From: a virus
Virus record (IMG/VR): IMGVR_UViG_3300032156_000027
Coordinates: 1 to 43,396 of that record
DNA: 43,396 nucleotides
Reading direction: 5' to 3' (one strand)
Shown here: positions 15,521-28,428 of the stretch, piece after piece
How positions within the stretch are numbered: the stretch's first letter is position 1
Layout: each line of letters begins with the position of its first letter
Notes under the pieces: model-generated
Told to the model about the DNA's origin: nothing
What the model saw: the letters and a program-made list of their open reading frames with translations, nothing else
Database searches by the model: none
Made by a program: the position numbers and the translations under genes

Positions 15521-15607
15521 ATCATTTTTTATCATGAATAAATATAGATAAATTAAATAAAATTTCAATCTTAAATAAAATAATAAAAAATATTTTTTCA
15601 AAAATAT

Positions 15608-15638
15608 TTGGTGATTAGAAAAACATTTTATATCTTTG
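15608..15638 (+). promoter_or_regulatory. Host-type promoter for the 171-aa exported protein
   Basis: TTGG at 15608 and TATCTTTG at 15631-15638, exactly 20 bases between TTG and TA. It excludes an upstream GTG (15640) as the gene start, because transcription would begin after it. Confidence 0.8.
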
Positions 15639-16873: not shown

Positions 16874-17203
16874 ATGAAAAAAACATTAAAAGAACAACAG
16901 GAACGAATTAAGGAAATAATGATTCCTGGACACACTTTAGATAAAATTGATGTTACAAAAGGCGGTTCATGGTATAGATATGAACTAAATGGTGAAGAAT
17001 TTATAATCATTTTTAAAGATGAAAATATAAATTCAATGATGGTGTTACAACCAGCTAAATTACATTCAGAAGATATGATTGGAATGAAAAAAGATATGCA
17101 AATTTTTCTTAAATCATTAGAATCAAAGGATTTACCTGTCAAACAAGAAACTGATGAATATTTAAATCAGTATAATAAAAATATGAGTCAGGGATTTAAA
17201 TAA
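16874..17203 (+). CDS. Tagged small protein (109 aa)
   Basis: Starts MKKTLKEQQERIKEIMIPGH, clearly related to the N-terminus of the 218-aa protein just upstream. Residues 25-70 look like a small beta-rich domain (GGSWYRYELNGEEFIIIFKD), followed by a helical tail. Function unknown; probably co-expressed with the upstream gene. Confidence 0.6.
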   Translation: MKKTLKEQQERIKEIMIPGHTLDKIDVTKGGSWYRYELNGEEFIIIFKDENINSMMVLQPAKLHSEDMIGMKKDMQIFLKSLESKDLPVKQETDEYLNQYNKNMSQGFK

Positions 17204-17231
17204 AAAAAAATAAAAATTTTTTCAAAAACAT

Positions 17232-17262
17232 TTGGTATTTATAATTATTATATTTATATTTG
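17232..17262 (+). promoter_or_regulatory. Host-type promoter of tRNA array 1
   Basis: TTGG at 17232 and TATATTTG at 17255-17262, 20 bases between TTG and TA, followed by TACCGTAA, also seen at 10734. Transcription should begin near 17269, 18 bases before the leader ATG. Confidence 0.8.
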
Positions 17263-17286
17263 TACCGTAATTAAAATTTAAAAGAT

Positions 17287-17373
17287 ATGAAAAAATTACT
17301 CGACACATTACATATCCTCTTGGCCGCTGACCTATTATGGGCAGATGAGGATAAATTATATTCAGTCGGGTAA
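17287..17373 (+). CDS. Leader peptide 1 (28 aa), attenuator sensor for tRNA array 1
   Basis: Encodes MKKLLDTLHI, then LLAADLLWADED, then KLYSVG and a stop. Residues 11-22 consist only of Leu, Ala, Asp, Trp and Glu, the amino acids of the array's tRNAs; 17 of the 28 residues are of these types. Leu codons include UUA, CUC, UUG and CUA, one for each of the four tRNA-Leu downstream (UAA, GAG, CAA, UAG). The last codons and the stop overlap attenuator segment A. By analogy with leader peptides of the trp and leu operons, ribosome stalling here should favour read-through into the tRNAs. No other function is apparent for so short a product. Confidence 0.75.
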   Translation: MKKLLDTLHILLAADLLWADEDKLYSVG

Positions 17374-17438
17374 GTTTAACATACATCATCCTTTCTTAAC
17401 AGAAAAGACCCGACTCCTTACAAGTCGGGTTTTTTTTT
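17364..17438 (+). terminator. Three-segment transcription attenuator 1
   Basis: Segment A (17364-17371) and segment C (17423-17430) are the identical octamer AGTCGGGT; both are complementary to segment B (17408-17415, ACCCGACT). B with C makes an intrinsic terminator followed by eight or nine T; A with B would prevent it. A lies over the leader's stop codon, so a ribosome finishing the leader hides A and permits termination, while one stalled earlier leaves A free. Confidence 0.75.
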
Positions 17439-17439
17439 A

Positions 17440-17450
17440 GTTCTTTGACA
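17440..17450 (+). promoter_or_regulatory. boxA-like antitermination element, array 1
   Basis: GTTCTTTGACA right after the attenuator, 13 bases before the first tRNA. It resembles rrn boxA (CTCTTTAACA in E. coli) recognised by NusB/S10. The same core occurs before array 2 and before the tmRNA. Confidence 0.55.
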
Positions 17451-17463
17451 TAATGGAATAAAC

Positions 17464-17538
17464 AGTGCGTTGGTGAAGTCTGGTTATCATGCGAGCCTGT
17501 CACGCTCGAGTTCACGGGTCCAAATCCCGTACGCACTG
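17464..17538 (+). tRNA. tRNA-Asp(GUC)
   Basis: Acceptor AGTGCGT/ACGCACT, anticodon stem CGAGC/GCTCG with loop CTGTCAC (anticodon GTC), T stem ACGGG/CCCGT, G73. No CCA encoded, so maturation needs a CCA-adding enzyme. First tRNA of array 1. Confidence 0.92.
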
Positions 17539-17548
17539 CAAATAAAAA

Positions 17549-17619
17549 GCTCGGTTCATCTAGAGGTAGGATTCAGGGTTTTCATCCCTGCCACAGCAGT
17601 TCGAGTCTGCTACCGAGTA
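17549..17619 (+). tRNA. tRNA-Glu(UUC)
   Basis: Acceptor GCTCGGT/ACCGAGT, anticodon stem CAGGG/CCCTG, loop TTTTCAT (anticodon TTC), T stem GCAGT.. with loop TTCGAGT. CCA not encoded. 10 bases after tRNA-Asp. Confidence 0.9.
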
Positions 17620-17634
17620 CTAAATTTTAAAACT

Positions 17635-17811
17635 ATGAGTATAAAAATGTTAGACGATCTCGTTATCGAATATGGCGATGAGGAAACAATTAAAGCCTAT
17701 TTTGAATATTGTGAAAAAGCGGATAAAGCAGCTAGACAGCCGCCATTCATTATATGTAGTAAAGAAATAGCAAAAATTCTAAATGAAATTCAAACAAAAG
17801 ACAGCAAATGA
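17635..17811 (+). CDS. Small protein inside tRNA array 1 (58 aa)
   Basis: ATG 17635 follows tRNA-Glu by 15 bases and the product is MSIKMLDDLVIEYGDEETIK...AYFEYCEKADKAARQPPFII...QTKDSK. The frame is open further upstream but only through tRNA sequence, so that part is not coding. The sequence is charged, helical and protein-like, with no known family. A hairpin (CAAAAGAC at 17795 with GTCTTTTG at 17820) overlaps its end and separates it from the next tRNA, possibly as a processing site. Confidence 0.55.
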   Translation: MSIKMLDDLVIEYGDEETIKAYFEYCEKADKAARQPPFIICSKEIAKILNEIQTKDSK

Positions 17812-17837
17812 TGTTTAGTGTCTTTTGTTGGCAAAAA

Positions 17838-17919
17838 GTCGTTGTGTTGAAACTGGTAGACAAGTATGGTTGAGGGCCATATATCGAAAGATGTGAGGGT
17901 CCGAGTCCCTTCAACGACA
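17838..17919 (+). tRNA. tRNA-Leu(GAG)
   Basis: Acceptor GTCGTTG/CAACGAC, anticodon stem TATGG/CCATA, loop TTGAGGG (anticodon GAG), long variable arm typical of Leu, T loop TCCGAGT, A73. CCA not encoded. Confidence 0.88.
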
Positions 17920-17942
17920 CAAAATAATGGATCAAAAAATAC

Positions 17943-18026
17943 GCCCTTATGGTGCAACTGGAATAAGACACACATGCCTTAGGAGCATGCCTTAACTGGA
18001 TGTCGGTTCGAGTCCGACTAAGGGCA
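17943..18026 (+). tRNA. tRNA-Leu(UAG)
   Basis: Acceptor GCCCTTA/TAAGGGC, anticodon stem CATGC/GCATG, loop CTTAGGA (anticodon TAG), long variable arm, T stem GTCGG/CCGAC, A73. CCA not encoded. Confidence 0.9.
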
Positions 18027-18028
18027 CT

Positions 18029-18098
18029 ATCTTACTTGAGAAGTGAAGCGATTAACTCTCGGCGCTCAGGCTTGAAGTAATAGTTTAAGAGTAAGATC
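18029..18098 (+). ncRNA. tRNA-sized structured RNA without recognisable tRNA arms
   Basis: Between two tRNA-Leu genes, ATCTTAC (18029-18035) pairs with GTAAGAT (18091-18097), giving a 7-bp closing stem at tRNA spacing. Inside, GAGA/TCTC and CTTGAG/CTCAGG pairings are possible, but no anticodon stem or T arm can be drawn. It may be a decayed tRNA or another small RNA. Confidence 0.35.
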
Positions 18099-18102
18099 AA
18101 CT

Positions 18103-18188
18103 GCTCCTGTGGCGAAATTGGCAGTACGCAACGGACTTAAAATCCGTGGGTCCAAAAAACCGTGAGGGTTCGACCCCCTTCAGGAGCA
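18103..18188 (+). tRNA. tRNA-Leu(UAA)
   Basis: Acceptor GCTCCTG/CAGGAGC, anticodon stem ACGGA/TCCGT, loop CTTAAAA (anticodon TAA), long variable arm, T loop TTCGACC, A73. CCA not encoded. This isoacceptor reads UUA, the leucine codon favoured in an AT-rich genome. Confidence 0.9.
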
Positions 18189-18377
18189 CAAAAGTTCAGA
18201 AAAGATAGGTAGATCTCTGCGACTCATGTTTCCCGTATTATGGTAAAGAAAGACTGGTCTAGGGTAAGAGCGAGCAACGGCGAAAATGAGATCGGAGAAC
18301 TTTAAGTAGTAGATGTCTAAGTTAAGTCAGGACATCCATAATAAATGTCAGGGCTTTTTTTCGGTCTACTACTTTAC
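18189..18377 (+). ncRNA. Unidentified structured RNA region between tRNA-Leu(UAA) and tRNA-Ala
   Basis: 189 bases without a gene. Part one: AAAGTTC (18191) pairs with GAACTTT (18297), enclosing GATCTC (18212)/GAGATC (18288). Part two: AAGTAGTAGA (18304) pairs with TCTACTACTT (18365), a 10-bp stem around two mutually exclusive hairpins, GATGTC/GACATC and GACAT/ATGTC, followed by AGGGC and seven T. Nested pairing at this density suggests one or two real RNAs. I do not recognise a family. Confidence 0.45.
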
Positions 18378-18451
18378 GGGGATGTAGCTCAGATGGCTAG
18401 AGCATCTGCCTTGCAAGCAGAGGGTCGAGGGTTCAAGCCCCTTCTTCTCCA
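18378..18451 (+). tRNA. tRNA-Ala(UGC)
   Basis: Acceptor GGGGATG/CTTCTCC with one U-U mismatch and the G3-U70 wobble that marks alanine tRNAs. Anticodon stem TCTGC/GCAGA, loop CTTGCAA (anticodon TGC), T loop TTCAAGC, A73. CCA not encoded. Confidence 0.9.
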
Positions 18452-18497
18452 CATGCACGGTTCGCCCTATACGCAGGATTGTTAGGAAGGGCAAAAC

Positions 18498-18568
18498 GGG
18501 TCATTAGTTCAAAGGATAGAACACCTGTTTCGCAATCAGGAGATCGGGTTCGAGTCCCGATGTATCCA
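18498..18568 (+). tRNA. tRNA with anticodon CGC (probably Ala), imperfect acceptor stem
   Basis: D stem GTTC/GAAC, anticodon arm CCTGT-TTCGCAA-TCAGG (anticodon CGC by position), T arm TCGGG-TTCGAGT-CCCGA, A73 followed by encoded CCA. The acceptor stem GGGTCAT/TGTATCC pairs at only four positions, including a G3-U70 wobble that fits Ala. If the anticodon loop were shifted by one base it would read UCG (Arg). May be decayed or edited. Confidence 0.6.
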
Positions 18569-18574
18569 CCAAAT

Positions 18575-18654
18575 GCCTCTGTGGATTATGCAAATAGGCA
18601 CAGCTAACAGGCTCAAACCCTGATCTTGTATGGGTTCGACTCCCTTCAGAGGCA
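18575..18654 (+). tRNA. tRNA-Leu(CAA)
   Basis: Acceptor GCCTCTG/CAGAGGC, anticodon loop CTCAAAC (anticodon CAA) closed by CAGG/CCTG, T loop TTCGACT, A73. The variable region is shorter than in the other Leu tRNAs and one T-stem pair is mismatched. CCA not encoded. Confidence 0.75.
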
Positions 18655-18660
18655 CAATAT

Positions 18661-18739
18661 ACGTCTGCATCTATTGGTGAAGTAAGCAGTCTCCAAAACT
18701 GTGCCTGCGGGTGTGCTGGTTCGAATCCAGCCAGGCGTG
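18661..18739 (+). tRNA. tRNA-Trp(CCA)
   Basis: Acceptor ACGTCTG/CAGGCGT, anticodon stem GCAGT/ACTGT, loop CTCCAAA (anticodon CCA), T stem GCTGG/CCAGC, G73 followed by an encoded CCA (18740-18742). Last tRNA of array 1. Confidence 0.9.
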
Positions 18740-18772
18740 CCAATTCATGCGCTTCAATATTTATTGTTATCT

Positions 18773-20365
18773 ATGACAGCAATAAAATATAGTACAACAC
18801 CAGTCAATTATACCATCAAGTCAAATAATATTGTAATTGGTAATGATATTGCGCCTTATGGGCCAACATCATCAACAGGATTTTATGCTGGAATTACTCC
18901 GCCTGATAACGGATATACAATTTATTGCGTAAATAGTGCCACGCATATTCCAACTGCTGTCGTTGCCCATAATGATGATGAATGTATCTGGTTTGCCAAA
19001 TCATTTGATGGAACAAATATCGTTACGATACAAGATGCCATAGCATATCTAATAACAGGGTCCACTGGAACAACTATAGTTAATATGGATTGTCCTCGTA
19101 TTGCTACAAGTGGATTAACGATGTATATGGCTACCGAATATCTTCCATCATATCCAAGAAAAGGTTCAACATGGAGAGATTTAAGTGGTAATCAGAATCA
19201 CGGCGCAATAGGATCAACCGTAGTATTTGACAATATAAATTATGGGGAATTCATATTTTCTGCTAGAACAGGTAATATGGATCATAAGAGTGATAATATT
19301 TATATTCCCCATAGCGCTTTCGGAGAAGACGCTCAATGGACGCTTTCTGCATGGTTTAAAACCACCGCAACTTATTATCAAGAAGTTGCGGATGGATATT
19401 CAGGTGAAATGTGGGGCGGCTTAGTAGTATTGTCATATGATCCAATACTTGCGGTGTTTGATACTGGCGCCGTGGCGGTCAGCTGGTCTGATGGTGTAAC
19501 ATATCCTCGAATTACCACCACTGGTACCACATATAATGATGGTATTTATCATAATGCCACAGCGACATATGATGGAACATATGTTCGTCTTTATATGGAT
19601 GGTAATCTTTTTGGTAGTCCATATCCCACATCTACTATACATTCAATATATGATGATTTTTATATTGGAGTTGAAATTAGCCTTGGAGATAGAACATTTA
19701 ATGGATCTATCGCTAGCGCTCAAATTTATGATCGAGCTATATCATCAGCAGAAGTTCTTCAAAATTATGACGCAATGAAATCAATAAGAAACATAATATT
19801 TTTTGATGATTTTAGTAGTTATACTCCAGGTTATCTTGGAGGTCAGGGAAGATGGGAAACTTATTTAGCCAATCCGTCAGGGCATCTTGTCACGACAGAT
19901 AAGACGGTTACTGGTGATGGTTCGTCTAATTATGATTTGGTCGATTTTAATTCAGATTTAGATGAAAGTTTAGGTTGGAAATTATCATTTAGGATTACCA
20001 AATTTAGTAATGAGGGGAGCTCGATTTTCATAGGTAATTCTTCATATTTGAAAATTTGGAATGATAATGGGGCCGAATTTATATGGTGTGCTCCCATAAT
20101 TACTGACAATGTTACATTTTGGAGGGATCCTAATTATCAAGTAGGCGATATTATAAAAATAAAGCGGCAAGGAAAACATCTTGAATTTTATTTAAATGGA
20201 GAAATTGATACGGAGTGGTATTTACATGAAGGTGATGCGACAGGAGATGATGGAGTATTTGATTGTGCAAATGATTTTGATTGGGATGAATCTGATGCTA
20301 TTTGGCTTCTACTAAGTGATTTAGATGAAATAGATGACATCCGATTTGAATATAATATTATGTGA
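18773..20365 (+). CDS. LamG/concanavalin-like virion surface protein (530 aa)
   Basis: Start ATG 18773, because the frame upstream runs through tRNA-Trp. Residues 1-105 form an N-terminal domain; about 110-345 is a LamG/concanavalin-type jelly roll (WRDLSGNQNHGAI, WTLSAWFKTT, VRLYMDGNLFG, FNGSIASAQIYDRAISSAEV); about 345-530 is a second jelly-roll-like domain (FFDDFSSYTPGYL, KLSFRITKF, LEFYLNGEIDTEW). Such domains bind carbohydrates and are common in phage fibres and head decorations. The first LamG is related to those in the 550-aa protein at 30758. ATATTTATTG lies upstream, similar to the late-type element. Confidence 0.75.
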   Translation: MTAIKYSTTPVNYTIKSNNIVIGNDIAPYGPTSSTGFYAGITPPDNGYTIYCVNSATHIPTAVVAHNDDECIWFAKSFDGTNIVTIQDAIAYLITGSTGTTIVNMDCPRIATSGLTMYMATEYLPSYPRKGSTWRDLSGNQNHGAIGSTVVFDNINYGEFIFSARTGNMDHKSDNIYIPHSAFGEDAQWTLSAWFKTTATYYQEVADGYSGEMWGGLVVLSYDPILAVFDTGAVAVSWSDGVTYPRITTTGTTYNDGIYHNATATYDGTYVRLYMDGNLFGSPYPTSTIHSIYDDFYIGVEISLGDRTFNGSIASAQIYDRAISSAEVLQNYDAMKSIRNIIFFDDFSSYTPGYLGGQGRWETYLANPSGHLVTTDKTVTGDGSSNYDLVDFNSDLDESLGWKLSFRITKFSNEGSSIFIGNSSYLKIWNDNGAEFIWCAPIITDNVTFWRDPNYQVGDIIKIKRQGKHLEFYLNGEIDTEWYLHEGDATGDDGVFDCANDFDWDESDAIWLLLSDLDEIDDIRFEYNIM

Positions 20366-20398
20366 ATAATTTAACGGTGATACAAGCTTAAATATTTT

Positions 20399-20605
20399 TT
20401 ATTCTGTTGTCATTTTTGCTTCTTTAGGGCTAACAATCCATAATGCAATGTATGTTACAAGGAAAAAAGGACAGGCAAATATTCCGCCCATTAAAAAAAT
20501 TAATCTCCAGAATACTGGATCCATTTTAAAGAATTCTCCAAGTCCGCCGCAAACACCAGCAATCACTTTATTTTTTCTACTTCTGTACAGTTTTTTTGTT
20601 TCCAT
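20399..20605 (-). CDS. PspC-domain membrane protein
   Basis: 68 residues from METKKLYRSRKNK (16 codons further upstream are open but less family-like). GVCGGLGEFFKMDPVFWRLI is the diagnostic PspC start, followed by a transmembrane helix (about 36-58) ending WIVSPKE. In bacteria PspC is an inner-membrane part of the phage shock response; the isolated domain is widespread in Bacteroidetes. In a phage it may protect or sense the membrane during infection. Confidence 0.85.
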   Translation of the reverse strand: METKKLYRSRKNKVIAGVCGGLGEFFKMDPVFWRLIFLMGGIFACPFFLVTYIALWIVSPKEAKMTTE

Positions 20606-20664
20606 AATCTTATGCTTTATACTAAAGACGATGGAAAAATCGAAGTGCGGCAATAAAATGAAAA

Positions 20665-21423
20665 TTAATTTTCAAATAAAGCAATAAAGTTTCGATAGTT
20701 CAATAAACCTGAGATTTTTTCATCTGATACATTCTTGAGAGGTGTACGGAAGATATTTGGATTAATATGTTTCTCCATATATGTGATTTCATAATGAAGA
20801 TGAGGCCCCGTTGCTCTTCCCGTTTTACCGACATTCCCAATTAAATCGCCTCTTTCCACATTTTCATTTACTATAACATTAATAATGCTCAAATGTGCAT
20901 ATAGAGATTCGTATCCGTTTAGATGATCAATTCTAATCATTTTTCCATATTCCCCATCCGATTCCGCTTTTTTAATTTTTCCGCTCGCCGTAGCATATAC
21001 AGGAGTACCTATTTTTGCTGGATAATCAATACCCCAATGGAATCTTTTATCTCCACTAATTGGATCTATTCTCTCACTATATACAGAGGATGATTTGGAT
21101 AAATTCACAACCGCAAGCGGTAATATTGCTGGATAATATTTTAATTGTTCATCCATAGCACTATCTTTTTCTGTCATTATCACTAATTGATAACGAATCA
21201 ACTTGATGTTATTATTAATATCCTTTTGTTCCTGAGATAATTCTGCAATTCCATTTTCGATATTTTCTAGTGAATTTAAGGGTTTTTTAAAATTCAAATA
21301 CCATAAAACAAGTACGATTTGAAGTAAAACTATCATCAAGGCCCATATAATCTGTTTTCTATGATTATTGGCCATCTCATAAATTCTCACAACGAAATTC
21401 CATATTTTATATGAATTCATCAT
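20665..21423 (-). CDS. Membrane-anchored M23 peptidase (LytM-type)
   Basis: 252 residues. Transmembrane helix at about 25-44 (IWALMIVLLQIVLVLWYLNF), coiled coil at ~48-85, and an M23 metallopeptidase domain at ~130-235 with the zinc motifs HWGIDYPAKIGTPVYA (HxxxD) and GPHLHYEI (HxH). M23 enzymes cut peptidoglycan cross-bridges. The anchor suggests it acts in the periplasm from the inner membrane, probably in lysis. Related in layout to the 217-aa protein encoded next on the same strand. Confidence 0.88.
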   Translation of the reverse strand: MMNSYKIWNFVVRIYEMANNHRKQIIWALMIVLLQIVLVLWYLNFKKPLNSLENIENGIAELSQEQKDINNNIKLIRYQLVIMTEKDSAMDEQLKYYPAILPLAVVNLSKSSSVYSERIDPISGDKRFHWGIDYPAKIGTPVYATASGKIKKAESDGEYGKMIRIDHLNGYESLYAHLSIINVIVNENVERGDLIGNVGKTGRATGPHLHYEITYMEKHINPNIFRTPLKNVSDEKISGLLNYRNFIALFEN

Positions 21424-21567
21424 TATTGATAAATATTCAACAATAGATAAGAATCACATCCTATGATCTACATTCATTTTAAGAATTTTTTATATCATTG
21501 GAATCTCACGCTTTGTATTATTAAAATTTTTTAATAATATATTCTGCACGCCCTCTAAAAAGACTTC
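21424..21567. other. Intergenic region between the two M23 genes
   Basis: 144 AT-rich bases. TATTTATC lies 6 bases before the ATG of the 252-aa gene on the minus strand, one base off the late-type element. I see no gene or clear terminator. Confidence 0.3.
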
Positions 21568-22221
21568 CTACTGAAAAATATTTGGATTAATAGATTTACC
21601 CTTATATGTTATTTTATAGTGAAGATGATATCCTGTTGATATTCCAGTGCTGCCAACAGTACCAATTGTATCACCTCTTAACACTTCTTGTTCAGTAATG
21701 ACTTTTCTGGTGTCTAGATGGCCATAAAAAGTCACATATCCGTTTTTATGATCAATTTCAATATGATTTCCATATCCATTATCAGAACCAGAATCAATAA
21801 TAATTCCATCGCCAGCTGAATATACTGGTGTTCCTCTCTTTGCGGCAAAATCTATTCCATTATGAAACCTAACCATTCCATATTTTACATTAGTTTTCAT
21901 TCCATATGTGGTAGATATGGCAACTATATCTTGACCTCGGATTGGTTGCAACGAAGGACGATGCCTTAATTGGGTGATATTAATACTATCTTTTATTCGT
22001 ACCATTTTTAAAAGATAATTAATAGTATCATTAGTTTTTTTAACCGTAACAATTTCAGATTTCAATATGGAATATTGAGTATCTCTTGGCACATAACAAG
22101 CAAATAATAAAACAATGATAATAATTTCAAGTGATAATTGAGCGAAAGATTTCTTATGTATCGAGACAAGCTTACAATATAGCCAATAGACTTTATCAAG
22201 TAATCGTATTATCGTCATCAT
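21568..22221 (-). CDS. Second membrane-anchored M23 peptidase
   Basis: 217 residues. Transmembrane helix at about 30-44 (LEIIIIVLLFACYVP), short coil, then M23 domain with FHNGIDFAAKRGTPVYSA and GYHLHYKI carrying the zinc ligands. Same fold and layout as the neighbour at 20665, so a tandem duplication that has diverged. Probably a peptidoglycan hydrolase acting from the inner membrane. Confidence 0.88.
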   Translation of the reverse strand: MMTIIRLLDKVYWLYCKLVSIHKKSFAQLSLEIIIIVLLFACYVPRDTQYSILKSEIVTVKKTNDTINYLLKMVRIKDSINITQLRHRPSLQPIRGQDIVAISTTYGMKTNVKYGMVRFHNGIDFAAKRGTPVYSAGDGIIIDSGSDNGYGNHIEIDHKNGYVTFYGHLDTRKVITEQEVLRGDTIGTVGSTGISTGYHLHYKITYKGKSINPNIFQ

Positions 22222-22315
22222 TGCTATAACTATTTAAATAATTCCAAAACGAACATCCTAATTACCCCCAAAAAACCTGTCAAAAATTTATTTTTTAAAA
22301 TTTTTCCAAAAATAT

Positions 22316-22346
22316 TTGGTTTTTACAATTATTATATGTATTTTTG
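22316..22346 (+). promoter_or_regulatory. Host-type promoter of tRNA array 2
   Basis: TTGG at 22316 and TATTTTTG at 22339-22346, with 20 bases between TTG and TA, as at array 1. Start of transcription expected near 22353, about 26 bases before the leader ATG. Confidence 0.8.
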
Positions 22347-22378
22347 TTGCGTATTTAATATTTATATTTTTTAAGGCA

Positions 22379-22450
22379 ATGAAAAATTTATTAAACAATG
22401 GTCGCCCCCAGCAACATCCACAAGTGGATGAATGGGGATACTATGTTTAA
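22379..22450 (+). CDS. Leader peptide 2 (23 aa), attenuator sensor for tRNA array 2
   Basis: Encodes MKNLLNNG-RPQQHPQ-VDEWGYYV and a stop. Residues 9-15 consist only of Arg, Pro, Gln and His, exactly the amino acids of the five downstream tRNAs. Codons are CGC, CCC, CAG, CAA, CAU, CCA, CAA, matching tRNA-Arg(ACG), Pro(UGG), Gln(CUG), Gln(UUG) and His(GUG). Attenuator segment A lies on codons 18-20. It has the same position, size and signals as leader 1 but a completely different sequence, which argues that its amino-acid content is the selected property. Confidence 0.75.
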   Translation: MKNLLNNGRPQQHPQVDEWGYYV

Positions 22451-22512
22451 ACTTTTTTATGAGAAGTTTTTAAATTAAGCAGAAACCCCATTCATTAAGA
22501 GTGGGGTTTTTT
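22430..22512 (+). terminator. Three-segment transcription attenuator 2
   Basis: Segment B AACCCCATTC (22484-22493) pairs with segment C GAGTGGGGTT (22499-22508, one G-U) to form a terminator with a six-T run. Segment A GAATGGGG (22430-22437), inside the leader ORF, is an exact complement of the same B segment. A small hairpin AAACTT/AAGTTT (22449-22469) sits between. Same logic as attenuator 1 with unrelated sequence. Confidence 0.75.
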
Positions 22513-22518
22513 ATTTTT

Positions 22519-22529
22519 GTTCTTTGATA
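22519..22529 (+). promoter_or_regulatory. boxA-like element, array 2
   Basis: GTTCTTTGATA directly after the attenuator T run and 5 bases before the first tRNA. Same core as at 17440 and 32452. Confidence 0.55.
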
Positions 22530-22534
22530 TATTC

Positions 22535-22607
22535 ACCCCTGTAGTTCAACTGGATAGAGCGCTAGACTACGGATCTTGAAATGCGGTTTCGAATACTGCC
22601 AGGGGTA
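22535..22607 (+). tRNA. tRNA-Arg(ACG)
   Basis: Acceptor ACCCCTG/CAGGGGT, anticodon stem CTAGA/TCTTG with one mismatch, loop CTACGGA (anticodon ACG, normally modified to ICG), T arm GCGGT-TTCGAAT-ACTGC, A73. CCA not encoded. Confidence 0.88.
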
Positions 22608-22634
22608 CAATATCGTTTAAATAAGTGATAAATT

Positions 22635-22716
22635 AAATTATCGCGTAATTACACGATAATTTGAAAATATAGCTTATAGAGGCTATAAATGATAAATATA
22701 GCCTGTAGAGGCTATA
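22635..22716 (+). repeat. Hairpin spacer with duplicated TATAGC..GGCTATA unit
   Basis: Between tRNA-Arg and tRNA-Pro: a 9-bp hairpin AAATTATCG/CGATAATTT (22635-22662), then two copies of a 20-base hairpin unit TATAGC(C/T)TxTAGAGGCTATA at 22668-22687 and 22697-22716. Probably RNA processing signals that separate the tRNAs. Confidence 0.5.
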
Positions 22717-22719
22717 AAA

Positions 22720-22804
22720 CGGGATGTGGTGTAGTTGGTAGCATGCGTGTTTTGGGAACATGAGGGAACGAAAGTCATCGCAGGTTCGAGTCCTGCCATC
22801 CCGA
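22720..22804 (+). tRNA. tRNA-Pro(UGG) with enlarged variable arm
   Basis: Acceptor CGGGATG/CATCCCG, anticodon stem CGTGT/ACATG, loop TTTGGGA (anticodon TGG), T arm GCAGG-TTCGAGT-CCTGC, A73. The variable region has about 17 bases (AGGGAACGAAAGTCATC) where Pro tRNAs have 4-5, as if about 12 bases were inserted. CCA not encoded. Confidence 0.85.
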
Positions 22805-22809
22805 CAATC

Positions 22810-22832
22810 ATCTAATTATCAAGTAATTAGAT
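22810..22832 (+). repeat. 9-bp hairpin between tRNA-Pro and tRNA-His
   Basis: ATCTAATTA/TAATTAGAT with a 5-base loop; no T run follows, so it is more likely a processing element than a terminator. Confidence 0.45.
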
Positions 22833-22841
22833 AATTTATAT

Positions 22842-22915
22842 GGTGTTCTTAGTGTAGTGGTTTAGCACAATACTCTGTGGAAGTATTAGCATCAGTTCGA
22901 CTCTGATATTACACC
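22842..22915 (+). tRNA. tRNA-His(GUG)
   Basis: Anticodon stem ATACT/AGTAT, loop CTGTGGA (anticodon GTG), T arm ATCAG-TTCGACT-CTGAT. G at position -1 (22842) faces C73 (22915), the histidine identity pair. Acceptor GTGTTCT/ATTACAC has two mismatches. CCA not encoded. Confidence 0.87.
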
Positions 22916-22930
22916 CTAATAAATAAAAAC

Positions 22931-23001
22931 TGTCTTATAGTATAGTGGTAATACAAATGCCTCTGGAGCATTGGTCCTAAGTTCGAATCTTAGTGAGACA
23001 A
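22931..23001 (+). tRNA. tRNA-Gln(CUG)
   Basis: Acceptor TGTCTTA/TGAGACA with the weak U1-A72 pair typical of Gln, anticodon stem AATGC/GCATT, loop CTCTGGA (anticodon CTG), T loop TTCGAAT. CCA not encoded. Confidence 0.88.
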
Positions 23002-23011
23002 CTAATTACAT

Positions 23012-23083
23012 TACCATATAGTGTAATGGCCAGCACAAGACCCCTTGGAGGTTTTAGTTACAGTTCGAATCTGTATATGGTAG
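23012..23083 (+). tRNA. tRNA-Gln(UUG)
   Basis: Acceptor TACCATA/TATGGTA (U1-A72), anticodon stem AGACC/GGTTT, loop CCTTGGA (anticodon TTG), T arm TACAG-TTCGAAT-CTGTA, G73. Its 3' half overlaps the end of the HNH gene on the other strand by 30 bases. Confidence 0.88.
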
Positions 23084-23749
23084 CAACCTATATTTTTCAT
23101 AAAATTTAATCCATTTCCTTATTGTATTATCACTAACGCTATATTTTCTCCCTGTGCCACAATACCCAAGTTCTTTAATTTCTTTTTGTAATTCGAAATA
23201 TTCGGGGCGATTTACTTTACGTTGCAAAATTGAAAGTTTTTGAGGATCTATATTCCTTTTATTTTTTATGCAAATTTCCTTTTTAATGTGTTTAACGCCT
23301 CTACAATGTGTTGGTAATGTCGCTTCACAATTTGGGCAAATGATTCTTAAATTTGATAATCTATTATCATTACTAACTCCATTAATGTGATCAATGATTA
23401 AACTTATTTTTTTACCCTGCCATATTTCGTCTTGTCCACATAATTCGCATTTATGATCTTTTATTCCTTCGTCGTATAACCTATTTTTTAAGTGGAATGT
23501 TCCAGTAAATAAAGAATTCTCTATTAATATTTTATCTAATGGGATTCTTCTAAATTTTCCGTTACGTCTATTTATTTGAATCAGGTTTTGAAAATGAGAT
23601 ATATCAATATTATACTGATTGATATATTTTTTTACTGTTTTTCTAGCATTTCCTCTTGTTGTTAAATTTAGTTTTGTCAGTACTTCTGTTAGACTATTTG
23701 AATTTAATACAAGGGGCTCGAAATTTTCTTTTAAGTATTTATTTTTCAT
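23054..23749 (-). CDS. HNH homing-type endonuclease
   Basis: 231 residues from MKNKYLKENFEPLVL; 28 more codons are open upstream but would run toward the forward promoter. N-terminal helical region, then HNH core with two CxxC zinc pairs: CELCGQDE, LIIDHINGVSNDNRLSNLRI and CPNCEATLPTHCRG. The C-terminus ELGYCGTGRKYSVSDNTIRK is a helix-turn-helix common in phage HNH enzymes. Free-standing homing endonucleases cut cognate genomes lacking the insert. Its last 30 bases are antisense to tRNA-Gln, so it has settled against the tRNA array. Confidence 0.9.
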   Translation of the reverse strand: MKNKYLKENFEPLVLNSNSLTEVLTKLNLTTRGNARKTVKKYINQYNIDISHFQNLIQINRRNGKFRRIPLDKILIENSLFTGTFHLKNRLYDEGIKDHKCELCGQDEIWQGKKISLIIDHINGVSNDNRLSNLRIICPNCEATLPTHCRGVKHIKKEICIKNKRNIDPQKLSILQRKVNRPEYFELQKEIKELGYCGTGRKYSVSDNTIRKWIKFYEKYRLLPYTDSNCN

Positions 23750-23847
23750 TTGTTTAATATTTAATTCATATATATAGTGTTCGAGCCAAAAATAACCATT
23801 ATAATATGAAAAGTAAACCATTAAGAGAAACAAAAATCAAAAATTAT

Positions 23848-27696: not shown

Positions 27697-28428
27697 TTAT
27701 TTTTCGAATGTGGGTTTCAACCATAGTCCATCCACGTTAAAAATATAATCCCTCAACTTTGGAAATTCGTTCAGTAATAAAATTGTTTTCAATGTGTTAT
27801 GTTTTAAACATTTAGTCAATTCCTCACGAATTCTGTCAGATGAAACAACAAACATTTTTGTTTCATAATCATATGTTTTAATCGTTTCGATAATTTCATC
27901 ACACATTGTAAAACCTTTAGTTATAGAAAATCTGGCGGCCCTTAAAATTCTGAGAGGGTCGTCGTCAAAAGTAACTTGGCAATCTAATGGTGTTCTTAAT
28001 ATACCATTCTTCAAATCCTGAATTCCGTTGAAATAATCTATGATTTTTCCATCAGATCCTTTGGCAAGAGCGTTGAGTCGAAAATCTCTTCGAGCCAGAT
28101 CATCATATAGAGTCCCTGGTTTGATTATCGGGGTTCTCGTACCTTGTATATAGCCAACTTCCTTACGAGCCATTACGAAGTCTGCCACACCCTCATATTT
28201 ATGTCCTTCGGGAAATCTTGCCCTTATTGTAAAACAACCAGGGGTTTCCAAGAAGATTTCAAACTTTTCGGCGGTCAGGTAATCACTTAGCACCTGAAAC
28301 ATATCAGAAGCTTCCGTGTATTCCCTTAAAAGCATTTCATTCGGAACGGCAACATAATCGACATCCTTAGATTTTAAACCTAGGATCTCATCTCTAATTT
28401 TACCTCCAACCTCAAAAAATTCAAACAT
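27697..28428 (-). CDS. CCA-adding enzyme/poly(A) polymerase-type tRNA nucleotidyltransferase (short form)
   Basis: 243 residues. Class II signature: FFEVGGKIRDEILGLKSKDV with the carboxylates of DVD (22-24), third acid in VADF (D83), LARRDFRLNALA (RRDFxxNA, 113-120), DDPLRILRAARF (156-167) and an arginine-rich SSDRIREEL near 197. It adds CCA to tRNA 3' ends. Most tRNAs in this window lack an encoded CCA, which explains its presence. At 243 residues it lacks the long C-terminal body and tail of the usual ~400-residue enzymes, so tRNA binding may differ. Confidence 0.92.
   Translation of the reverse strand: MFEFFEVGGKIRDEILGLKSKDVDYVAVPNEMLLREYTEASDMFQVLSDYLTAEKFEIFLETPGCFTIRARFPEGHKYEGVADFVMARKEVGYIQGTRTPIIKPGTLYDDLARRDFRLNALAKGSDGKIIDYFNGIQDLKNGILRTPLDCQVTFDDDPLRILRAARFSITKGFTMCDEIIETIKTYDYETKMFVVSSDRIREELTKCLKHNTLKTILLLNEFPKLRDYIFNVDGLWLKPTFEK

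Follow-up and report, generated by a model that had tools for sequence, protein, structure and literature searches.

The viral DNA analysed here, a stretch of 43,396 nucleotides that we call the window, contains on its forward strand five tRNA genes that are preceded by a promoter, a short open reading frame, and an intrinsic terminator. ARAGORN and Rfam agree on the order tRNA-Arg (acg, 22535–22608), tRNA-Pro (tgg, 22720–22805), tRNA-His (gtg, 22843–22916), tRNA-Gln (ctg, 22931–23002), and tRNA-Gln (ttg, 23012–23084), as the original prediction had listed them. The reading frame (leader 2, 22379–22450) encodes the peptide MKNLLNNGRPQQHPQVDEWGYYV followed by a stop codon. As in his/trp attenuators, it sits between the promoter (22315–22346) and the terminator (22481–22511). 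The promoter is of the Bacteroidota type, with TTTGG at 22315–22319, a 19-nt spacer, and TATTTTTG at 22339–22346, and the same arrangement recurs upstream of a second leader in the window (leader 1) and of most leaders in related phages. The promoter consensus of Bacteroidota is TTTG/TAnnTTTG, and the host of this fragment was probably a member of that phylum. The 29 bases from 22300 to 22328, which overlap the start of the leader 2 promoter, recur as a short copy (86%) at 15592–15620 on the forward strand, and this copy is possibly another promoter.

Codons 9–15 of leader 2 (22403–22423; CGC CCC CAG CAA CAT CCA CAA) translate to RPQQHPQ, as predicted. This run uses only the four amino acid types of the downstream array, and its CAG and CAA codons match both Gln anticodons, which bears out a further part of the prediction. 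In a random 22-mer with the composition of this phage, a seven-residue run with all four types is expected with a probability of about 6e-6. Since 1 of the 385 small ORFs in the window, unrelated and antisense, also contains a seven-residue R/P/H/Q run, the motif alone is not decisive. What decides against chance is the position of leader 2, the second leader, and the comparative data.

The RNA between the control codons and the first tRNA gene can be divided into the four segments of a classical attenuator. Segment 1 lies within the control codons (22403–22423) and pairs with segment 2 if no ribosome is present. Segment 2, the antiterminator strand GATGAATGGGGA at 22427–22438, was assigned by duplex energy and a footprint model. 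Segment 3 (22485–22496) is the 5′ arm of the terminator and can pair either with segment 2 or with segment 4, the latter pairing giving a terminator with a 13-bp stem (AGAAACCCCATTC/GAGTGGGGTTTTT) and a T-run. Complementarity had been claimed between GAATGGGG (22430–22437, codons 18–20) and CCCCATTC (22486–22493); it exists and is longer than stated, because the antiterminator ATGAATGGGG:CCCCATTCAT forms ten perfect base pairs plus one G-U pair and is mutually exclusive with the terminator. The duplex of segments 2 and 3 has an energy of −18.5 kcal/mol compared to a mean of −8.7 kcal/mol for shuffled sequences (p 0.005).

Leader 1 belongs to a unit of the same layout at 17231–18742, also on the forward strand. 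A promoter (17231–17262, TTTGG ... TATATTTG) is followed by an ORF (17287–17373) that encodes MKKLLDTLHILLAADLLWADEDKLYSVG and a stop codon with the control run LLAADLLWADED, by an intrinsic terminator (17400–17438, AGAAAAGACCCGACTCC...AAGTCGGGTTTTTTTT), and by a tRNA array (17464–18742) that was read with ARAGORN and Rfam as Asp, Glu, Leu(gag), Leu(tag), Leu(taa), Ala, Ala, an additional tRNA at 18575–18654, and Trp. The additional gene matches Rfam with 32.3 bits and was not called by ARAGORN; its anticodon can be read as CAA (Leu). The control run contains four different Leu codons (CTC, TTG, CTA, and TTA), which match the three assigned tRNA-Leu species (gag, tag, and taa) and the additional tRNA if its anticodon is CAA. 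A 12-residue A/D/E/L/W run such as that in leader 1 has a chance probability of about 5e-7, in keeping with the earlier argument that repetition of the same logic in a second leader speaks against coincidence. None of the Rfam amino acid leader families (His, Trp, Leu, Thr) reached its gathering score between 17150 and 23150; Thr_leader gave a subthreshold match on leader 1 (27.2 bits against a cut-off of 55).

Several other genes in the window are worth recording. Two similar neighboring ORFs on the reverse strand (20665–21423 and 21568–22221) lie between the tRNA arrays. The ORF at 21568–22221 matches Peptidase_M23, and a search for its relatives found none; the other one resembles it by eye. 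Directly after the second array, an HNH-endonuclease-like ORF on the reverse strand (23054–23833) contains 232 bp that are 74% identical to LR756504. Compared with phage records at the DNA level, the region from 16.8 to 24.2 kb gave matches to tRNA and HNH genes only. The product of 27697–28428 (reverse strand) contains a PolyA_pol head domain (2.8e-15), the fold of CCA-adding enzymes, and may possibly be such an enzyme. CCA is apparently not encoded in the tRNA genes of the window.

Folding computations agree with the predicted switch. The leader 2 RNA folds with a z-score of −4.75 (0 of 200 shuffles as good), and the control codons of leader 2 precede the antiterminator strand by one ribosome footprint; together with the complementarity described above, these results support the prediction. 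Modelled ribosomes stalled at R9 to Q15 leave 4–11 antiterminator pairs before segment 4 is made, with only a partial antiterminator at P14 and Q15, and a stall at V16 leaves none. The codons that keep the antiterminator strand free in the model are thus exactly the array-matching codons 9–15. In leader 1, stalls at the matching codons L11 to D22 leave 7–8 pairs and a stall at L24 leaves none. Without a ribosome, pairing of segments 2 and 3 falls from 9–11 to 3.6 bp in leader 2 and from 7–8 to 0.2 bp in leader 1. Hence, by computation, both untranslated leaders favor the terminator through pairing of segments 1 and 2, as in the his and trp operons, and in the footprint model, a purely computational one, a control-codon stall exposes segment 2 while a ribosome at the stop codon covers it. 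At equilibrium, the full-length RNA prefers the terminator for most stall positions. The switch must therefore be kinetic and act during transcription.

Close relatives contain the same two array classes as the window. In class A, the control region contains Val where the array has tRNA-Val (L005, L053, L056, L194) and lacks Val where this tRNA is absent (the window and L003). A DNA pattern search for leader 2 found the contig of L005 as its sole match. The leader 2 ortholog on this contig reads HQRPQGQPP before an array of Pro, Arg, Pro, His, and three Gln tRNAs. In the 148-kb near relative G034 (L215 12422, L216 8130), the ortholog in L215 reads PQHQPQQ before Pro, Pro, His, Gln, and Gln tRNAs, with neither a tRNA-Arg nor an R in the motif; R occurs in the leader 2 motif only where the array includes tRNA-Arg. 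G034 contains four leader units, among them a Lys-rich leader upstream of two tRNA-Lys and the leader NISSSVTISGITTRSSRSCNGMSMFNRIFTGINTG before a Cys/Ile/Phe/Gly/Met/Asn/Ser/Thr/Arg array. In L047, which belongs to another lineage, the tRNAs are split over two arrays, one with the leader MKRFTHIITMSFTTCSKWAEVADIRMSRG (Ala, Phe, Lys, Asp, Val, Trp, Arg, Cys, His, Ile, Met, Thr, Ser, Glu) and one with the leader MKNLVNIQQPSNNPLSGNGRGIYL (Leu, Arg, Pro, Asn, Tyr, Met, Gly, Gln, Ser).

The huge-phage records LR756502, LR756504, and LR756501 (636–735 kb) contain many small leader units. Leaders from this set include QQQQQQQ upstream of four tRNA-Gln (L213), KKQQYKQYQPQYK before a Tyr/Gln/Lys array, and TPAPAVAFRRGTGTGTGTCVPAG before an Arg/Thr/Val/Ala/Gly/Pro array. 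The QQQQQQQ leader is an extreme case of matching, as are LSLCLSLSLSL upstream of Leu/Ser/Cys tRNAs (L226) and IAIVEIAVIGGAEEGV upstream of Glu/Ala/Ile/Val/Gly tRNAs (L222). Genomes above 634 kb in PMC7162821 belong to the Mahaphage clade, phages of Bacteroidetes, and LR756501, LR756502, and LR756504 are, judging from size and source, presumably Mahaphage genomes from that study. In several huge-phage records (L164, L172, L205, L206, L229, L243), ARAGORN reports tRNAs with the anticodon cta, labelled Pyl, which are possible amber suppressor tRNAs.

A survey that ignored leader composition allowed a statistical view of this correspondence. A unit was defined as an ORF of 15–50 codons ending 8–55 nt before a terminator that lies at most 700 nt from a tRNA. 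Searches with a ClpB-like AAA+ protein and the large terminase provided 160 IMG/VR loci, and whole-record tRNA searches added many arrays. This blind pipeline returned 61 units, 40 of them nonredundant after clustering the leaders at 45% identity. The fraction of leader residues that belong to the isotype set of the leader's own array is 0.515, compared to 0.265 when leaders are shuffled among arrays (z 14.4, 0 of 20,000 permutations), and 98.9% of array isotypes are present in the corresponding leader, compared to 67.7% after shuffling. In the +1, +2, and antisense frames of the 40 units, the leader-array match gave no signal. Antiterminator complementarity reaches p < 0.05 in 27 of the 40 units, with a combined p of approximately 1e-26.

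Segment 2 typically occupies the stretch from 24 to 10 nt ahead of the stop codon. With the first position of segment 2 as the reference for alignment, matches are most frequent at codon −6 (0.92), still reach 0.82 at −4, drop to 0.58 at −3, and fall to background inside and beyond segment 2. This is the profile predicted from a ribosome footprint that extends past the A site by about 12 nt on the downstream side. Where a codon box is split, leaders tend to use the codon that corresponds to the anticodon present (Arg 16/18, p 0.002; Ser 26/36, p 0.045). The correspondence is not complete. Some leaders contain residues with no matching tRNA, such as A in L163–L169, and two units (L166/L179 and L046/L171) show no leader-array match. 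Of the 40 nonredundant units, these two (L166 and L171) appear to be false positives that the blind rule let through, because they lack antiterminator complementarity as well. Related-phage arrays in L165, L176, L183, and L187 have no detected leader or terminator, some of them with a promoter directly upstream, so leader control is not universal.

Among eight control phages with about 230 tRNAs (Providencia PSTCR5, Cronobacter S13, Vibrio D69, Streptomyces CeilingFan, Rhodococcus Trina, LR756511, LR756508, and Flavobacterium immuto), the blind rule found a single unit, in Vibrio phage D69, and this unit is itself a leader of the same kind. The D69 leader MSHSICSQSAQHSARYNAFNSWISN precedes Ser, Tyr, Ile, Ala, His, Phe, Arg, Ser, Cys, Trp, Gln, and Asn tRNAs and contains a 24-residue run with all 11 isotypes of the array and no other residue. 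The length of this run exceeds that of all 40 other leaders, and the plain match fraction of 0.76 is equalled by one other (0.77). The complementarity of the D69 antiterminator strand was not significant in our test. This leader (L236, 19519–19662) is annotated from an upstream ATG as hypothetical protein VPHD69_0165; a better start lies at 19555, with AAGGGG before it.

The Lak-A1 leader MTYGMHPVCGMVHMFPCGGGRPM, which precedes His, Pro, Arg, Gly, Cys, and Met tRNAs, and the Bacillus phage G leader CSWFEFDTDFTDVFYCEYTFYSLYTF (also given as MMKCSWFEFDTDFTDVFYCEYTFYSLYTF...), which precedes Cys, Asp, Phe, Tyr, Glu, Thr, and Ser tRNAs, match their own arrays better than all 40 other leaders do. 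The match in Agrobacterium phage Atu_ph07 and in Lak unit b is not above that of other leaders, and their assignment to the same kind is suggestive only. The leaders of Vibrio phages 1.081.O and D479 cannot be judged by composition because their arrays hold nearly all isotypes. Judged from these sequences, the leader system is present in the 636–735 kb huge phages and in Lak-A1, and apparently also in Bacillus phage G and Vibrio phage D69. The comparative test proposed for the locus thus came out as expected: leaders match arrays in relatives and in unrelated phages, and residues come and go with the corresponding tRNAs (Val in class A, Arg in leader 2).

These results allow us to weigh other explanations for leader 2. 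The leader and terminator may be real, with the array regulated in nature by an antitermination factor of phage or host origin, or simply by timing; amino acid polling would then be secondary and tRNAs never limiting during infection. Huge phages do encode transcription and translation factors (PMC7162821), and related arrays without leaders exist. We nevertheless consider this explanation improbable, since it accounts neither for the close tracking of array content by leader composition nor for the end of the matches at the footprint boundary. Still less likely is a T-box-like switch, in which uncharged tRNA would bind the leader RNA directly and the apparent codons would be specifier sequences that need no translation. 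The agreement of leader codons with the encoded tRNAs down to split codon boxes would suit such a switch, but we reject it because no Rfam T-box match was found in 17150–23150 even at E 1, because the matches form an in-frame ATG-to-stop ORF with many consecutive matching codons, and because the antiterminator strand is fixed relative to the stop codon, one footprint from the control codons. A chance origin, in which a short ORF upstream of an ordinary intergenic terminator would be enriched in the matching residues by accident, is suggested by the antisense ORF with a similar run but, barring a biased unit set, is dismissed by the permutation result for 40 dissimilar leaders with silent alternative frames, by the antiterminator statistics, and by the footprint-shaped match profile.

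We conclude, with a probability of roughly 0.9, that leader 2 is a ribosome-mediated transcription attenuator that controls the phage tRNA array and senses shortage of the charged tRNAs which this array supplies. The computed support consists of anatomy, codon-array matching, antiterminator complementarity, footprint geometry, and recurrence in many phages. From these we infer leader translation, stalling, read-through, and the signal during infection. All testable sequence-level consequences of the proposed his/trp-type attenuator polling its downstream tRNAs held.

In the proposed mechanism, transcription would start just past the promoter and a ribosome would enter the 23-codon leader. With ample charged tRNA-Arg, -Pro, -His, and -Gln, the ribosome would reach the stop codon and cover segment 2, the terminator would form, and the tRNA genes would remain silent. 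Scarcity of any one of the four in charged form would stall the ribosome at codons 9–15. Its footprint would then block segment 1, and segment 2, left free, would pair with segment 3 ahead of the synthesis of segment 4, allowing read-through into the genes for the same tRNAs. Absence of translation would favor termination through pairing of segments 1 and 2. Shortage of any tRNA in the set would thus release the whole array and recovery would restore termination, making the switch a self-limiting, demand-driven supply of replacement tRNAs. The natural trigger may be depletion of host tRNAs by takeover or by tRNA-cutting defences. Such a supply fits the proposal, made in PMC10264068 and PMC11555353, that phage tRNAs stand in for host tRNAs that defence nucleases have cut.

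Leader 2 probably exemplifies a general and previously unrecognised layer of regulation in large tailed phages, in which tRNA arrays would be partitioned into operons, each with a leader that counts the matching isoacceptors and releases replacements upon depletion, for example by anticodon nucleases or host takeover. Phages that infect Bacteroidota, Bacillus (phage G), and Vibrio would share this layer, either through convergence or because it is ancient. It has long been asked why phages have tRNA genes of their own and at what point they use them. If a leader responds to exactly the tRNAs of its array, these tRNAs would be emergency replacements on demand; the leader would name the shortage that each array answers and provide a sequence rule to predict the tRNA losses that phages anticipate. 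What has been a question about uncultured huge phages thereby becomes testable in isolates such as Bacillus phage G.

We know of no earlier case in which tRNA genes are subject to attenuation or one peptide polls up to 14 amino acids. A search of the open-access literature, including PMC7162821, PMC13282480, and PMC10264068, revealed no earlier description of phage tRNA arrays under the control of a leader. The mechanism class, his/trp attenuation, is known; the tRNA target, the multi-amino-acid sensing, and the viral setting appear to be new.

Leader-peptide attenuation is a classical mechanism (PMC1183508). The his, trp, leu, thr, and ilv leaders of enterobacteria share with the phage units a promoter, a short ORF with control codons, segments 1–4, competition between terminator and antiterminator, and a spacing of one footprint between the control codons and segment 2 downstream of them. 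Unlike these bacterial leaders, the units described here occur in phages, control tRNAs instead of enzymes, and poll from 1 to 14 amino acids together in one leader, and their genes make the very molecule whose shortage is sensed. T-box riboswitches likewise sense tRNA charging and place aminoacylation-related genes under antitermination, but they bind tRNA directly without translation, and the leaders in the window gave no T-box match. Large tRNA sets are a feature of Bacteroidota phages of 540–735 kb, both the huge phages of the Mahaphage clade (PMC7162821, where the words "leader" and "attenuat" are absent) and the Lak phages (PMC6784885), and LR756501, LR756502, LR756504, and MK250015 carry leader units. 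That arrays of phage tRNAs make up for lost host tRNAs and counter tRNA-cutting defences is described in PMC10264068 and PMC11555353, which concern the tRNAs themselves, with no mention of a leader or attenuator in PMC10264068. To this picture, the phage leaders add a way in which need could turn such arrays on.
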